64,000 nucleotides of DNA from Psychrobacter pasteurii (GTDB taxonomy: Bacteria > Pseudomonadota > Gammaproteobacteria > Pseudomonadales > Moraxellaceae), in assembly GCF_900162815.1 (NCBI RefSeq), contig NZ_FUGD01000131.1, forward strand, positions 1 to 64,000, given 5' to 3'. Position numbers and translations under genes: made by a program. Positions 2-5,962 of this stretch are shown piece after piece. Every line of letters begins with the position of its first letter. Within the stretch, counting starts at the first letter, position 1. A model generated the notes under the pieces. The model was not told where the DNA came from and ran no database searches. It saw only the letters and a list, made by a program, of their open reading frames with translations.

Positions 2-283
2 CGGCATGCCGTGGTGGTTATGGATGGGGCGCTATGGCACCAACCAAGTTTGGATCAAGACAATGTGACCATGCTTAAATTGCCTCCCTACTCACCTGAG
101 CTTAACCCTGCTGAACAGGTATGGCAGTACCTTAAACAGCATTGGTTGTCTAATCGCTGTTTTGAGAGTTATGATGCGATTGTCGATGCGGCATGTGACG
201 CTTGGAATGCATTGTGTAATGAGACTAACTTAATTAGGTCTATCACTCAGCGGGAGTGGTGCGACTTGAGTGTTATTTTTTAG
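2..283 (+). mobile_element. IS630-family transposase, C-terminal part (5' end outside window)
   Basis: The frame is open from base 2 and ends at TAA-type stop 281-283, so the N-terminal half of the protein lies outside the window or is missing. The visible part carries the second catalytic Asp in a V-V-M-D-G-A-x-x-H context and the catalytic Glu in PPYSPELNPAEQVW, which is the typical C-terminal DDE signature of IS630/Tc1-type transposases. These enzymes cut and paste the element at TA dinucleotides. The first Asp cannot be seen. I could not identify a terminal inverted repeat in the ~100 bases after the stop. Whether the element is intact depends on sequence to the left. Confidence 0.85.
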
Positions 284-391: not shown

Positions 392-1603
392 ATGGCAACA
401 GTAAAAAAAGTATTAAAGTGGCTGATGATCTCTATAGTTGGGCTGATTGTTTTGATCTCTATCGGTCTACTGGTTACAGGTAATGGCTATATCTTTAGAG
501 GGTTGCAGCTGACCTATCTAAAAGGTGAAAAAACAGCGAATATTGATGATTACATCGATTTTGACAATAGAATCATCGATACATCAATTCCTATTTCTTG
601 GGAGAAAGACACTAACTTTGGCGCCATCTCTTTGACACCAGAACTACAAAACGCGTTAGATAATGACCAAACTGTCGCCTTTGCTTTTATTAAAGATGGC
701 AAATTGTTGTATGAGAGTTATTGGCAGGGTTACAGCAGCGAGTCGCATACCAATAGTTTTTCTATGGCAAAAACAGTCACTACGATGCTGTATTTAAAGG
801 CAGTTGAAGAGGGCATTATTGCAGACATAAATGAACCAATAATCACCTTTTTGCCTGAATATGCTAATGATAAATACGCACAAAACTGTACTTTGGCAGA
901 TTTATCAGGTATGACCTCTGGCTATGATTGGTTGGAGGATTATTATTTGCCAGTGAACCCAACTGCCAAGGCCTATTATGGCAATGATTTGGTTAAGCAC
1001 ATGACCAGTCGCTCATTTATTGAAGAGTGTGGCGGTCATTTTGTCTATTCCAGTGGCGACACTCAGCTTCTTGGTATTGCGCTGACTCGTGCTTTAAAAC
1101 CTCATGGCTATACAGCCTCTAGCTATTTAGAAGAGAAGTTTTGGAAACCATTAGGCATGAAAAATGAGGGATATTGGTCGTTAGATGGTTCAAAAAATAT
1201 TGAGAAAATGTACTGCTGCCTGAATGCAAATGAGTTAGATTTTGCCAAATTTGGACAATTACTCTTAAATGGTGGCGAGTGGCAAGGCGAACAATTGCTG
1301 TCAAAGGAGCATGTTGAGTGGATGGTAACCCCCAATGAAGCCGCTTTTGATGTCGGTGAGCCACAGATATATGGTCATTCAGTTTGGACCGATATGGACA
1401 GCCCGGTGCCGTTTTATGCCATGCTAGGGCACTTGGGTCAGCGTGTTTTGGTACTACCTGAAGAAAACGCCATTATTGTCCGTCTGGGTAAACAAAAAGG
1501 ATTACCAACCCCTGTTGCAGGTTTTCATTTAGAGCCTGATTTGGGGCTATATGTCACCGAGGTTAAAAAGATTATGGATAACCTGCCAGCACCAGCCGAG
1601 TAG
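392..1603 (+). CDS. membrane-anchored serine hydrolase, beta-lactamase (class C / PBP-like) family
   Basis: This 403-residue protein begins with a hydrophobic segment (about residues 8-30) that probably anchors it in the inner membrane with the enzyme domain in the periplasm. The catalytic S-x-x-K is seen as S-M-A-K at residues 124-127, the Tyr motif as Y-S-S at about 219-221, and the third motif as H-L-G at about 347-349, all in the order of the class C beta-lactamase / DD-peptidase / esterase (EstB-like) fold. An AAGGA-like ribosome site (about 377-381) supports the ATG at 392. The family includes esterases, peptidases and 6-aminohexanoate hydrolases, so the substrate cannot be assigned. 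It lies directly after the IS630 remnant and 56 bases ahead of the next gene. Confidence 0.85.
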   Translation: MATVKKVLKWLMISIVGLIVLISIGLLVTGNGYIFRGLQLTYLKGEKTANIDDYIDFDNRIIDTSIPISWEKDTNFGAISLTPELQNALDNDQTVAFAFIKDGKLLYESYWQGYSSESHTNSFSMAKTVTTMLYLKAVEEGIIADINEPIITFLPEYANDKYAQNCTLADLSGMTSGYDWLEDYYLPVNPTAKAYYGNDLVKHMTSRSFIEECGGHFVYSSGDTQLLGIALTRALKPHGYTASSYLEEKFWKPLGMKNEGYWSLDGSKNIEKMYCCLNANELDFAKFGQLLLNGGEWQGEQLLSKEHVEWMVTPNEAAFDVGEPQIYGHSVWTDMDSPVPFYAMLGHLGQRVLVLPEENAIIVRLGKQKGLPTPVAGFHLEPDLGLYVTEVKKIMDNLPAPAE

Positions 1604-1659: not shown

Positions 1660-2559
1660 ATGACACAAGATGTCTTGGAGCAAGCGTCGATACAGCTAGC
1701 AAAACAGATAACAGATTATTTACAGGATAATCAGCTAGAGGCTAATTTGCCTAATATCAGCTATGAGATATTGGCCTTGCAGCTTATAGACAGTGTTGAG
1801 CACGAAAATCAGATTAAAGCGCTTGCAGATACCAAAATTTCTAGCGCCTGTTGTGATCCCAATTCTGATAGTTTTGACCCCATAAAAGCCATCGTCTTCT
1901 TGAAAGACAGCGATTATGATGAGGCCTGTTGGTTGAGCTTTTTGCTGATTTATACTGATGATAGTGCAGACAATGATTGGCCATTTATGAGGCTGCTGTA
2001 TAAGGGCGTAGGATTGGATACTCCTAGACTGACTTGGAAAGCAGTTAACGAGCATTCAGACTTATTAGCTCAGTTAGATACCGTGGCGAGTGCTTTAGCC
2101 CTGCAGCAACCTAAGCCTAAGTTTGGTCATCATAGAGCTTATGAGTCATTGGCTCAGTTACCTACGGTATTTACCAGTTATATTGGTTTTATAAATGAGC
2201 AGGGCGGGCATAAGGCTTTATTCCAGCCAAATAAGACTGATGTTGATAAACAAGCGTATTTTGAAACTTTATACTCATTGATACGTCAAAATATTTACCG
2301 TTTTGGTCGGCTATCGACGTTTGAGTATTTATGTTTACTTGGCAAAATGAGGTTAGCTGATGTCGAGCCAGACAGTTGTTATATCGCTGAAGCCAGTGGC
2401 CCTAAGCGCGGTGCCAAACTGTTATTTGGCATGCTAAACAATGAGCAGCTAGACGCGCATGCGGTGGGCTTGGCCGACTATCTGGATGTGGGATATCAAG
2501 AGATGGAGGCCGCGATATGCCATTGGCAGAAGTCTCCAAATCGATATATTCAGCATTAG
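1660..2559 (+). CDS. conserved hypothetical protein; possible alpha-glutamyl/putrescinyl-thymine pyrophosphorylase clade 3-like
   Basis: A soluble protein of 299 residues from the ATG at 1660 (a GTG at 1651 is also in frame). No signal peptide or membrane segment is visible. The C-terminal third has a run of features I associate with the aGPT-Pplase3 family, a helical enzyme group predicted to act on hypermodified thymine in DNA: F-G-R-x-x-x-F-E-Y-L near residue 218, L-L-G-K-M-R, a V-E-P-D-S-C-Y stretch, the G-P-K-R-G-A-K-L-L-F-G segment near residue 250, and a terminal W-Q-K-S-P-N. This match is from memory and is an inference. The N-terminal 150 residues are acidic and unrecognised. It may be cotranscribed with the serine hydrolase and ends at a strong terminator. 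Its position beside an IS remnant suggests an accessory gene. Confidence 0.5.
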   Translation: MTQDVLEQASIQLAKQITDYLQDNQLEANLPNISYEILALQLIDSVEHENQIKALADTKISSACCDPNSDSFDPIKAIVFLKDSDYDEACWLSFLLIYTDDSADNDWPFMRLLYKGVGLDTPRLTWKAVNEHSDLLAQLDTVASALALQQPKPKFGHHRAYESLAQLPTVFTSYIGFINEQGGHKALFQPNKTDVDKQAYFETLYSLIRQNIYRFGRLSTFEYLCLLGKMRLADVEPDSCYIAEASGPKRGAKLLFGMLNNEQLDAHAVGLADYLDVGYQEMEAAICHWQKSPNRYIQH

Positions 2560-2590
2560 TATCCTCCTCATACTATTTTATCTTAATAAA

Positions 2591-2624
2591 AAGCCCCATA
2601 AGTCATCGCTTATGGGGCTTTTTT
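2591..2624 (+). terminator. intrinsic terminator after the 1660-2559 gene
   Basis: A perfect 12-bp stem (2591-2602 with 2609-2620, centred on the GCCCCATAAG motif) has a 6-base loop and is followed by a T run. Confidence 0.9.
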
Positions 2625-2658: not shown

Positions 2659-3984
2659 TCACCAAGGTTTCAGAGTAAAAATTTGCTTTGGTGAGTTATT
2701 GCACGTGGCGATTTTTAGACTCTTAGAGCCCTCATTATCACTAACGGATATACAATTTAAAGCAGGTGTTTGTTCTGCAACCTCTTTGTTGAGGTTCTTT
2801 TGCCACAAGGGCATGAGTTGATATTGCTCATCACCGACTGGTTTTAGTGAAAACAGTTGTCCTGAATAGTTGCCACACTATTTTAGATGTAGCTTTTGAT
2901 CATGCTTGCCACCGTTAACGATATCTAGGCATTTGTCATCATTACCTTGAGTATATTTAATCTGATATCTATTGGAAGTGCCATACTGACTGTCGACTTT
3001 AGGAACAAGTTTCCAAAATTGAGAGTCAGTTGCAGAGATTGGTGCCATTTTTGCAAAATTAGAATCAGAAATATCAATGGCGTTTTGAGCATTAGAGCTG
3101 GTAATTTGGTAAGGGGTATGAGGTGTTATTTTGATGGGTAGGTGGGTCAGATTTAGATTAACACCTTCAAAAAACTTTATTCGATTGGGTATGGTTTTGA
3201 GTATTTTATCTTGAAGTGTTCCCAGTCGTTCATTCTTATACTTAACCGCATAGTAGGTGATTAAGCTTTCCGCTATGTCCTCATAGTCATTGGTTTTGGC
3301 ATAATATGAGATATGGTCATTATCTTGGGACTGAGCCTGTTTCCACAGCGCGTATAAAGGATTTTGCTTTTTGAACAGCATGGTATTGAAGTAGTTATGA
3401 GTGGCTTCATGAAATAAAGCTTCTTCAATAGAGCCTTTTTCGATATGTTCAGCACCGCGTTTTTCAAAGATAATGATATTATTATTACCACCCATCAAGC
3501 CATTATAGTGGTTATGAATCGTTATTGAGTGCGTTGCTTTTCGTAAATCTGGTGGTATATATCCTAACTGCTCAGCATAGATTGAACCTGTGGTATAAGC
3601 GTCTTGCCATGAGCGTTTACCGTCGTCATAACTGACCTGAATCTCTATATCAGGCCCCAATTCATAGCTTGCTTCTAGAATATAAAACTTGCTGTAGAGC
3701 CACTTTTTCTCTTTTATCTCGTAATATCTTCTGGTTTCGATATTCGGGCTGGTATTGTTTTTTAGAATAAAACGGTACTTACTGCGCCAGTCACTGTCGT
3801 TATTTTTATACTCAGGAATATATATTTCTTTAAAGTCGTTGCTATCAGAGGGATTGATAATATCAGAACCCATTGCATAGACCGTCCCGCCAGAGCCATT
3901 GGGGTTGCCGAAAGCGACCGCATAAGCTGCGTTACTTATACTTATCAGCATGATGCTACTTAATATAAGTCTAACGGGGCTCAT
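2659..3984 (-). pseudogene. secreted HEXXH metallopeptidase-like protein with ricin-like C-terminal domain, interrupted by an in-frame TAG
   Basis: The minus-strand frame starts at the ATG at 3982-3984 with a clear signal peptide (residues 1-22, cleavage after A-Y-A). A zinc-binding H-E-A-T-H lies at residues 192-196, with acidic residues near 236-239 that could supply a third ligand. From about residue 285 the protein resembles a ricin B-type beta-trefoil lectin. Translation stops at TAG 2878-2880 after 368 residues, but the same frame stays open for 72 more codons to TGA 2659-2661. The extra codons carry convincing lectin sequence (C-G-N-Y-S-G-Q-L-F-S-L just after the stop, and a final Q-I-F-T-L-K-P-W). 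The full product would be 441 codons. A single C-to-T change of CAG to TAG is the simplest explanation. Alternatives are a base-calling error or amber readthrough. A truncated secreted protein with an intact peptidase domain could still be made. Confidence 0.8.
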
Positions 3985-4323: not shown

Positions 4324-5688
4324 TCAGCTCAGCTGTGTAGAACCATCTTGAAAGCTTTCAGGATGAACTTTATCCCCCAAGATTTTGTTACCCACTACAC
4401 CGGAGGTAATAGAGCCACTGACATTTACTAACGTACGCATCATATCAATGAGAGGCTCGATTGAAATTAACAGACCTGCCAGCTCAAGAGGCATACCAAG
4501 TGTAGATAACACAATGATGGCTGCGAAAGTTGCACCGCCACCGACACCGGCCACACCAAATGAAGCAATCATAGAAACGCCGACGACAGAAGCGATAAAA
4601 CCGATAGACCAAGGGTCGATACCCATCGTTGGTGCAATCATCATCGCAAGCATCGCAGGATACACACCAGCACAGCCATTTTGACCAATGGTTGATCCAA
4701 AGGAGGCTGAGAAGTTAGCAATCGGTTTGGCAATGCCTAACTTATTTACCTGAGCATCGATACTTAGAGGAATCGTTGCTGCTGAACTGCGAGAGGTAAA
4801 GGCAAAGGTTAATACCGGAGCAATCTTCTTGAAGTGTTCAATAGGCGATCTGCCCGTTAGCATAATGATAAAGGCGTGGACAATTAACATAATGAATAAT
4901 GCCACATAGGACGCCACTAAGAATTTTGCCAACTGCCAAATAGCATCAGCATCTGTGGTCACAATGACCTTAATCATTAGCGCTAAGATACCGTAAGGGG
5001 TTAGACGAATAATGAAGCGAACCAAAGCCATAACCCAGCTTTGAACCACATCAATACCTTTAAGGATAATTGCCCCTTTTTCTGGGTCATTTTTATTAAC
5101 CGTTAGTGCGGCAATCCCCATCAAGCTGGCGACGACCACAGCTGAAATCATTGAAGTGCTGGCAAGCTCAGCGAAAGTGCCTCCCATGCTGGTTGGGATA
5201 AAGCTTAATATCAGGCCTGGAATGGTTAAATCAGCAACATCGCCACTACGCTCAATGATGCTTTGACCTCGTGCAACTTCCATCTCACCGGCGACAATTG
5301 AGCTGGCATCTAAATGAAAGAGGTTGGCAATGACAGCGCCATCTAAAGCTGCAATACCCGTGGTAATAAGTAGGGTGCTGATAATCCAAAAGCTCATTGA
5401 GCCAATCATGGACGCTTTCTCAAGGCGGGCAATAGCTGCCAAGATAGAGACAAATACCAAAGGCATGGCAATCATTTTTAATAGATTCACATAGCCATTA
5501 CCGACGATATTGACCCATGGTAAAAAGCTTTCAATATCGACATTTAAGGTAGATAAGACTAGCCCGTAGACTACCCCTAAAAATAGACCTAGAAATACAC
5601 TACGACTCAGTGAGTCGCTCTGACGGTGATATCGCCATAATCCATATAGCAAGGCTATGAATATGACTACCAGCACTAGTAATAGCAT
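4324..5688 (-). CDS. tcyP: L-cystine transporter, DAACS family (TcyP/YdjN type)
   Basis: A sodium- or proton-coupled symporter of the dicarboxylate/amino acid:cation family that imports L-cystine across the inner membrane. The 454-residue protein has eight or more hydrophobic segments. The substrate-site signatures of the TcyP branch are visible: the serine-rich S-R-S-S-A-A-T-I-P-L hairpin, the N-G-C-A-G-V-Y-P-A segment, and the glycine-rich F-G-V-A-G-V-G-G-G-A region. I chose the ATG at 5686-5688 because a GGAG site precedes it; an upstream TTG (5706) has no support. The gene is a single unit with its own terminator. The substrate is assigned from overall resemblance to E. coli YdjN. Confidence 0.88.
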   Translation of the reverse strand: MLLLVLVVIFIALLYGLWRYHRQSDSLSRSVFLGLFLGVVYGLVLSTLNVDIESFLPWVNIVGNGYVNLLKMIAMPLVFVSILAAIARLEKASMIGSMSFWIISTLLITTGIAALDGAVIANLFHLDASSIVAGEMEVARGQSIIERSGDVADLTIPGLILSFIPTSMGGTFAELASTSMISAVVVASLMGIAALTVNKNDPEKGAIILKGIDVVQSWVMALVRFIIRLTPYGILALMIKVIVTTDADAIWQLAKFLVASYVALFIMLIVHAFIIMLTGRSPIEHFKKIAPVLTFAFTSRSSAATIPLSIDAQVNKLGIAKPIANFSASFGSTIGQNGCAGVYPAMLAMMIAPTMGIDPWSIGFIASVVGVSMIASFGVAGVGGGATFAAIIVLSTLGMPLELAGLLISIEPLIDMMRTLVNVSGSITSGVVGNKILGDKVHPESFQDGSTQLS

Positions 5689-5962
5689 GAGGAGCTCCGC
5701 GCACAAATAAAACGTTCTATTATCCTGATTTTTAATAAAAGGTCTAACAGTTAATGCTCAACTGGTTATTCCCATTGGTTATAAGAGGCTTTACATTAAG
5801 TTAGCTTTTTATAGCTTGATGAGCTTAATAAATGAGTTTATTTGTGGCGTAGTGCTTGACCGCATAAAAAAGTTATTTTAGAATCTGTATCACTGTACTA
5901 GAACGAAGAAACAGCTTATCAAATTATCAAAAAACAAGTTTATTAAAAACAGGGTGCATCTG

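Follow-up and report, generated by a model that had tools for sequence, protein, structure and literature searches.

A solo aGPT-Pplase3 gene of Psychrobacter pasteurii as a possible repurposed descendant of a mobile gene cassette

Related systems

Proteins of the aGPT-Pplase superfamily have a predicted HhH-GPD-like fold, and the pyrophosphorylase or base-modifying activity of clade 3 (aGPT-Pplase3) is a prediction carried by the family name. The papers that founded the field are Iyer 2013, Lee 2018 and Lee 2022. The closest structurally solved protein is PUGT (gp46) of Pseudomonas phage PaMx11, a 5-phosphomethyl-2'-deoxyuridine (5-PmdU) glycinyltransferase, which acts on 5-PmdU (title of entry 8z2m). 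PUGT is a phage gene of an HMUDK pathway, with a thymidylate synthase (TS) homologue and a HMUDK-type protein encoded nearby.

Several bacterial defence systems are relevant to the gene cassette described below. Brig1 is a UDG-fold defence protein that excises alpha-glucosyl-hmC from T4 DNA (PMC11078745), and CMoRE is another bacterial defence against 5hmC DNA, which acts by a nuclease (PMC12923530). PD-Lambda-2 has three components: a protein resembling HigB, a fusion of HigA with a peptidase, and a third that is required against lambda-vir. Its fusion protein is toxic alone and the HigB-like protein rescues (PMC9519451). DefensePredictor lists the aGPT-Pplase domain as a predicted, unvalidated defence domain, its newly validated domains include thymidylate synthase and 5-hydroxymethyluracil kinase, and the legend of its figure 6F names aGPT-Pplase and UDG (PMC13092281). 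Burroughs 2015 is reference 59 of the same paper.

The locus considered here lies at the start of the window, the first 64,000 nucleotides of contig NZ_FUGD01000131.1 from the draft genome (229 contigs) of Psychrobacter pasteurii. It contains an aGPT-Pplase3 gene that stands alone, and comparison with its relatives leads to a cassette found in several phyla.

The window gene and its family

The gene runs on the forward strand from an ATG at 1660 to a stop ending at 2559 and encodes 299 amino acids; an alternative in-frame GTG start lies at 1651. The features of this part of the window are the following.

2-283 (+): C-terminal part of an IS630-family transposase (NF033545, 77 bits; PF13358), outside the system
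392-1603 (+): serine hydrolase (PF00144), ending 56 bases upstream of the ATG at 1660
1660-2559 (+): solo aGPT-Pplase3/ADDT gene (PF18746, 199 bits; PF18724, 148 bits; AlphaFold2 pLDDT 95.7)
2588-2623 (+): hairpin with a 3' T run, a probable terminator (RNA fold -25.9 kcal/mol, z -7.7)
2878-3984 (-): secreted HExxH protein with a lectin-like C-terminal part, a neighbour in some solo loci
4324-5706 (-): SDF-family symporter (PF00375), syntenic in the solo loci of P. lutiphocae, P. phenylpyruvicus and P. piechaudii

Membership of the aGPT-Pplase3 family is firm. In Pfam the protein matches PF18746 (aGPT-Pplase3) with 199 bits (E 1.4e-58, cut-off 25) over model positions 4-276 of 279, which bears out the assignment made in an earlier sequence-only reading and rules out that the gene belongs to no family. 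The motif blocks on which that assignment was built (FGRLSTFEYL, VEPDSCY, GPKRGAKLLFG and WQKSP) are all present in the open reading frame. PF18724 (ADDT, amino acid:DNA transferase) is matched as well, with 148 bits (cut-off 26.2) over model positions 1-232 of 232, and the putative activity of an ADDT-type protein is the transfer of an amino acid to DNA pyrimidines that carry a phosphomethyl or hydroxymethyl group. Other searches with the window protein returned nothing from NCBIfam at E 1, 0 families from PADLOC-DB 2.0.0 at E 1 and a best E of just 0.19 from PHROGs, and a sequence search of solved structures gave a best E of 0.19 with the aGPT profile and 1.3 with the protein. The window gene is the one PF18746 match in its own genome, and 14 control genomes contain 0.

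The AlphaFold2 model, built from 85 aligned relatives (pLDDT 95.7, pTM 0.92), is all helical. In VIA-align, PaMx11 PUGT fills the first two rows (8z2n and 8z2m, Z 10.9 and 10.8 over 213 and 212 residues, 4.2 A for the best match), but the VIA notes state that a common arrangement alone can bring helical models to Z near 13, so the gap in Z and the top rank of the one functional relative outweigh the Z value itself. Rows 3-28 are DNA glycosylases or endonuclease III by title, bar one unnamed protein, with Z down to 6.6; the next row has Z 3.1, unrelated rows lie at 3.1 and below, and no family beside PUGT and the glycosylases stood out in the list. The model therefore comes nearest to PUGT and then to HhH-GPD glycosylases, the fold comparison that the sequence-only reading had suggested, and an HhH-GPD-type fold is supported for the predicted structure. 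Foldseek against the PDB returned no match below E 0.001 and no HhH protein among the 50 best, and the best viral-model match is a mycobacteriophage protein labelled 'Amino acid:DNA transferase' (E 7.8e-5).

PUGT and the window protein are both ADDT proteins (PUGT itself matches PF18724 at 97 bits), and a C-terminal E-x-x-(L/I)-C-x-W block aligns between them. Their sequence identity, however, is 12-13%, hhalign of alignment A2 (see below) against PUGT gives a probability of 3% over the C-terminal block only, and the window gene has no HMUDK-pathway neighbour of the kind found beside PUGT. A search for further PUGT relatives found 3 viral contigs.

The neighbours of the window gene contribute little to its interpretation. 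The IS630 piece, present where the sequence-only reading saw a remnant, corresponds to model positions 224-298 and is better described as a C-terminal part truncated by the contig start. At its end, contig C188 of the same genome (L135:1-240) weakly matches the N-terminal part of IS630 (20 bits, E 3.5e-4, under the curated cut-off), so the element may be whole and split only by assembly. The serine hydrolase matches PF00144 and has an N-terminus that is hydrophobic by eye, in agreement with the membrane serine hydrolase noted previously. Neither the hydrolase nor IS630 has a counterpart beside the other Psychrobacter solo genes compared; both thus say little on the function of the window gene, and a functional unit with either was rejected. 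A consensus terminator scan listed none at 2588-2623.

The HExxH protein was considered as a stand-in for the ImmA peptidase of the cassette and dropped: its N-terminus looks like a signal sequence, a ricin-lectin-like part is present in its homologue, and P. piechaudii carries a solo gene without an HExxH protein. At 368 amino acids it looks C-terminally shortened against the P. phenylpyruvicus homologue (L017:8884-10245), which has 453 amino acids and the ricin-lectin-like C-terminal part.

A cassette around the relatives

Relatives of the window protein were sought in phages, plasmids and genomes. Searched with the window protein (E limit 0.01) and with one cassette relative (E limit 0.001), a set of 50,697 phage records gave 0 matches, which speaks against a gene of known phages and leaves the phage connection proposed from the sequence unsupported, although 26 IMG/VR viral contigs carry relatives. 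Eight plasmid records matched, of which seven were viewed. A genome scan yielded 216 relatives, and the best 80 were kept, a sample chosen by closeness to the window protein rather than at random; by record titles these best 80 of 216 include, for example, Pseudomonadota, Bacteroidota, Chloroflexota, Acidobacteriota and Planctomycetota. A DNA-level search of E. coli genomes gave nothing useful.

The relatives occur in a five-gene cassette with the order TS-like gene, optional UDG-like gene and aGPT-Pplase3, followed by a convergent HigA-ImmA fusion and a HigB-like gene. All seven plasmid loci viewed have an upstream, same-strand gene annotated as thymidylate synthase, and the downstream convergent gene is annotated as ImmA/IrrE peptidase in six and as hypothetical in one. 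Models of the cassette proteins were made from the seven plasmid loci and genome loci L015 and L019, none within the 80, and all ORFs were searched. Under the distance rules of the script, the best 80 genome loci contain TS-like genes in 73, ImmA in 73, HigB-like genes in 73 and UDG-like genes in 33, with TS-like, ImmA and HigB-like together in 71. The TS-like total is 74 of 80 when L072 is added, which carries the gene but failed the overlap rule. Among the 26 viral contigs the corresponding counts are 25 (TS-like), 25 (ImmA) and 23 (HigB-like).

Nearly all loci of the sample from outside the Moraxellaceae carry the cassette. A TS-like gene is missing from six of the 80, namely L021-L025 (four from Psychrobacter and one from Acinetobacter) and L071 (Chryseolinea), and the seven without ImmA are L021-L025, L081 and L084, of which L081 and L084 have contigs that end 10 and 144 bases past the gene. 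In L024 the contig stops 62 bases after the gene, leaving the upstream side alone visible. L071 (Chryseolinea serpens) has the UDG-like, aGPT-Pplase3, ImmA and HigB-like genes with no TS-like match and is the sole non-Moraxellaceae exception among the best 80. Smaller variations occur in L048 and L068, where the UDG-like gene comes after and not before aGPT-Pplase3, still ahead of the convergent ImmA gene, and on a Leptospira interrogans plasmid (L014:7881-8814), where aGPT-Pplase3 is annotated as two hypothetical ORFs and the rest of the cassette is complete.

A literature search whose reach did not include the founding papers of the field found neither a paper describing the cassette nor the name aGPT-Pplase3. 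The cassette may already be described in Iyer 2013, Lee 2018, Lee 2022 or Burroughs 2015, and figure 6F of the DefensePredictor paper may show it.

The TS-like protein carries cytosine signatures. Against solved structures, a profile of 28 TS-like sequences matches the CMP 5-hydroxymethylase MilA best, with 235 bits, compared with 106 for the best thymidylate synthase. The residues were read from 103 sequences of 112 matches, with short ones and repeated loci dropped and near-identical ones retained. The catalytic Cys is present in all 103, as are Asp at the position of E. coli N177 and Ser at that of S167; the R126 position has Arg in 94 and Lys in 9, and the residue three before Cys is acidic in 92 (Asp 64, Glu 28) and another in 11. 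Asp at the pyrimidine-specificity position is a dCMP determinant and the acidic residue a hydroxymethylase mark (PMC6400193), two features that link the TS-like protein to MilA and T4 dCMP hydroxymethylase. MilA has Ala and Lys in place of the Ser and Arg that mark the dCMP type (PMC5175136), so that in this pair the cassette protein departs from its top hit. Host ThyA and PaMx11 gp51 both have Asn at the N177 position, and gp51 likewise has Asp before Cys, which means that the acidic mark alone fits any hydroxymethylase. Together the Asp, the acidic residue and the Ser/Arg marks make 5-hydroxymethyl-dCMP the expected product; to judge from these residues, the cassette probably makes this compound and not a thymine derivative, and the tie to thymine drawn in the sequence-only reading becomes doubtful for this clade. 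These enzyme features belong to the TS-like protein of the cassette, and none lies in the window genome.

A second TS-like gene was seen in another genome of the genus (G011, C4:25794-26411, locus L156), with 172 bits to the cassette TS profile; the ordinary ThyA of genus genomes reach 79 bits or less, and aGPT-Pplase3 gave no match in G011.

The optional third protein has no worthwhile Pfam, NCBIfam or PDB sequence match. Its model (pLDDT 93.8) is that of a UDG, with Foldseek E 7.6e-5 to UdgX and Z 14.7 to the family 4 UDG of S. tokodaii. As modelled, it shares with Brig1 the UDG fold and the S. tokodaii enzyme as best structural match. Brig1 acts on a hydroxymethylcytosine derivative, and the part of its description available here names no TS-like or aGPT-Pplase partner (PMC11078745).

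The convergent protein joins a HigA-type HTH (4mct, 47 bits) to an ImmA/IrrE domain in which H267, E268 and H271 are invariant in 22 aligned rows, and the small gene beside it is weakly HigB-like ('Putative Killer protein', E 0.064). The two cassette ImmA proteins tried both match PADLOC PD-Lambda-2_B (124 and 58 bits), whereas the A and C models of PD-Lambda-2 found no match among the eight cassette proteins searched, and the cassette adds the TS-like, aGPT-Pplase3 and UDG-like genes. Such a system is absent from the window. Given that the PD-Lambda-2 fusion is toxic and rescued by its HigB-like protein, the toxin of the pair could be either partner.

The neighbours of the cassettes hint at a defence context, and the search for defence genes around homologues that the sequence-only reading had called for did find some. 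In a sample of 110 of 252 neighbour ORFs, called naively, 54 PADLOC families were matched at E 1e-20 (families, not neighbours, are counted); among the matches listed are GajB, a CBASS cyclase and type I and III restriction genes. The control, 49 window ORFs that match one PADLOC family (mad3) in 2 members, is one ordinary stretch from another taxon. The suggestion of a defence or nucleobase-processing role is hence plausible for the cassette, with its PD-Lambda-2_B-like antitoxin-peptidase and its defence neighbours; the window gene itself is without cassette partners and several family-invariant residues.

The solo copies in Psychrobacter

Neither a TS-like gene nor a convergent HigA-ImmA gene lies beside the window gene. 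In the draft genome as a whole there is no PF06114 protein and no cassette-type TS at E 1e-20, and the one PF00303 protein, on contig C66, is an ordinary ThyA (402 bits). Six other solo genomes (G034 and those of L021-L025) also have one PF00303 protein each; PF06114 is absent in five of them and occurs once, away from the solo gene, in G034. The family is carried by 5 of the 60 genomes sampled in the genus, the own one included: G004 has a full cassette (L015), and four have solos.

The Psychrobacter solos share neighbours. A helicase gene (HrpA, named by eye) lies upstream, adjoining or a few ORFs off, in L016, L017/L022, L018/L023, L021 and L024, where the paired handles are the same records taken twice. 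The SDF symporter is downstream of the solo in L017/L022, L018/L023, L021 and the window, and is not in the visible stretch of L016; as a synteny marker it occurs in 2 of 25 genus genomes. In the own genome the helicase gene ends near the start of C188, with the weak match to the IS630 N-terminal part behind it. Since the window contig begins inside IS630, the likely order is helicase, IS630, hydrolase and solo gene. In 19 further genomes of the genus the genes that follow hrpA vary, and no common empty site is seen there. A second, separate solo exists in Acinetobacter sp. HY1485 (L025:7971-8816), at another chromosomal place and with no cassette genes in the 16.8 kb locus.

In a midpoint-rooted tree, for which the bootstrap had not settled, the five Psychrobacter solos form one clade (100/99), joined next by the Psychrobacter cassette copy (100/98) and then by the Acinetobacter solo (100/99). 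This Moraxellaceae group of seven, six solos and one cassette, is one side of the deepest branch. Two partner losses, or an old solo state with gains, fit the tree about equally. Losses are preferred because the partner proteins of the Psychrobacter cassette (L015) are strongly diverged: its TS-like protein has 34-40% identity to 27 others, and its ImmA 24% to that of L019, where others have 35-55%.

The Psychrobacter solos are under purifying selection. Over the 10 pairs of the five solos, pS is 0.585-0.863 and pN 0.125-0.253; omega is 0.12, a value from the sole unsaturated pair, synonymous sites being saturated in 9 of 10.

Residue conservation was compared in alignment A2, which holds 91 of 98 non-redundant rows (L014, which is split, and L052, L065, L080, L085, L102 and L123 were removed by hand), and the criterion of invariance is our own, not that of Pfam. 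By this criterion 17 residues are invariant in 85 cassette rows, a few of which, L071 among them, come from incomplete loci. In the five solos 13 of these residues are retained and 4 replaced, namely R48 (to H, Q or E), D222 (to E), D284 (to A) and N288 (to H), so that three of the four go to one common new residue. All five also change N157 (present in 96% of rows) to His and K160 (93%) to Ala, and H157, A160, E222, A284 and H288 are uniform among them. Two stretches of the window gene show these changes.

1801-1803 (+): codon 48 (His), counted from ATG 1660; Arg in 85/85 cassette rows and H/Q/Q/Q/E in the five solos
2506-2529 (+): codons 283-290 (EAAICHWQ); EDxxCNWQ in cassettes, where D284 and N288 are invariant, with Ala and His in the five solos

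The window protein retains H158, R217, G247-P248, G251, E283, C287, W289 and K291. It thus differs from the aGPT-Pplase3/ADDT copies of cassettes in several residues invariant there, a difference that, as read from the alignment, would lower the claim of the same chemistry and not that of family membership.

Seven control cassette clades, chosen by hand from the tree, change 0-1 of the 28-33 sites that are 97% conserved elsewhere in the alignment. By the same measure the Psychrobacter solos change 5 of 28, the Acinetobacter solo 4 of 28 and the Psychrobacter cassette copy 2 of 29, the latter two being single sequences, which change more easily than a whole clade. The solo stem is also somewhat longer (0.82 changes per column; among the controls, 0.69 for the Comamonadaceae clade and 0.68 for that of the Burkholderiaceae), so some extra residue change is expected. 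The excess in the solos may be taken as support, not proof, of an altered function. The Acinetobacter solo keeps D222, D284, N288 and K160, and partner loss alone therefore does not bring these changes.

Origin and possible functions

The reading that we favour, with confidence slightly on the positive side, is that the window gene is a vertically kept single-gene descendant of the mobile cassette, repurposed after the loss of its partners. Repurposing is proposed on account of the lost residues and the missing supply of modified base, together with the fold, the solo clade, the shared neighbours and the purifying selection.

The solo may instead still carry out the original transfer onto a modified DNA base, with its substrate coming from host metabolism or phage DNA. 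Unchanged chemistry is in keeping with the purifying selection, with the high-confidence PUGT-like predicted fold and with the survival, in every one of the five solos, of 13 of the 17 residues invariant in cassettes, but the replacement of R48, D222, D284 and N288, invariant in 85 cassette rows, and a genome lacking a cassette-type TS at E 1e-20 make this reading unlikely. Somewhat less likely still is that the gene was always solo in this lineage and that cassettes were assembled around it later or elsewhere, its residues then representing an older function. The root is only a midpoint, with the Moraxellaceae seven as one side of the deepest branch, and two losses or two gains account for the pattern about equally; against an always-solo history, the Pfam family model and all 84 other rows derive from cassette-type relatives, and the strong divergence of the L015 partner proteins is what long joint travel would produce. 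That the gene is a functionless relic heading to decay seems very improbable. Its partners are gone from the genome, conserved residues are lost and the family is patchy (5 of 60 genus genomes), yet the ORF is intact, pN is far below pS across Psychrobacter species and the five solos agree on H157, A160, E222, A284 and H288.

For the cassette itself, the family name may be right and the product derived from thymine (5-hydroxymethyl-dU), on the pattern of phages like PaMx11, where PUGT acts on 5-PmdU and is accompanied by a TS homologue and a HMUDK-type protein. This is improbable in view of the Asp found at the N177 position in 103 of 103 TS-like proteins, where gp51 and host ThyA have Asn, of the CMP 5-hydroxymethylase as nearest solved structure, and of the seven viewed plasmid loci, in which no HMUDK is annotated. 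The cytosine reading leads to a bolder proposal, which we put forward tentatively and would rate as possible rather than probable: clade 3 would be misnamed and would be the writer of a mobile bacterial cytosine-hypermodification immune system. The cassette would make and incorporate 5-hydroxymethyl-dCMP, aGPT-Pplase3 would add a group to 5hmC, the Brig1-like UDG would remove wrong or foreign hydroxymethyl bases and the PD-Lambda-2-like toxin pair would stand guard. The Psychrobacter solo would be a domesticated copy, able to sense phage DNA that is hydroxymethylated, or to attack it, while making no such DNA itself.

Under the favoured reading of a repurposed descendant, the ancestral cassette would work as follows. 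The MilA/T4-type enzyme would make 5-hydroxymethyl-dCMP, which would enter DNA; aGPT-Pplase3 would bind the DNA, expose the modified base and alter its 5-position, in the way that PUGT acts on 5-phosphomethyl-dU; unwanted modified bases may be removed by the UDG-like protein; and the HigB-like and HigA-ImmA pair may guard the system or make the cell dependent on the cassette. For the window protein, DNA binding and base exposure can be inferred from the model. With the supply of modified base gone and R48, D222, D284, N288, N157 and K160 lost, the cassette chemistry has presumably been lost or changed. The protein would now most likely act by itself, either binding DNA or serving as an enzyme with a changed specificity. 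That it acts on or senses hydroxymethylated bases in incoming phage DNA is a guess, and much less probable than the repurposing itself. Taken as a whole, the sequence-only reading keeps its family and its HhH-GPD-like fold, finds no support for its phage tie and is left with a doubtful tie to thymine.

The cassette is a more interesting lead than the window gene. A family for which no tested cellular function was found gains a testable context, a conserved cassette in several phyla with a TS-like gene bearing the marks of dCMP hydroxymethylases. By this context, bacteria with the cassette should have 5hmC, or a compound derived from it, in their DNA. The Psychrobacter solos are a natural set in which the fold is kept and the partners and several shared residues are lost; the clade can be of use in finding the residues responsible for the chemistry, and in learning what becomes of a base-modifying enzyme once it is freed.
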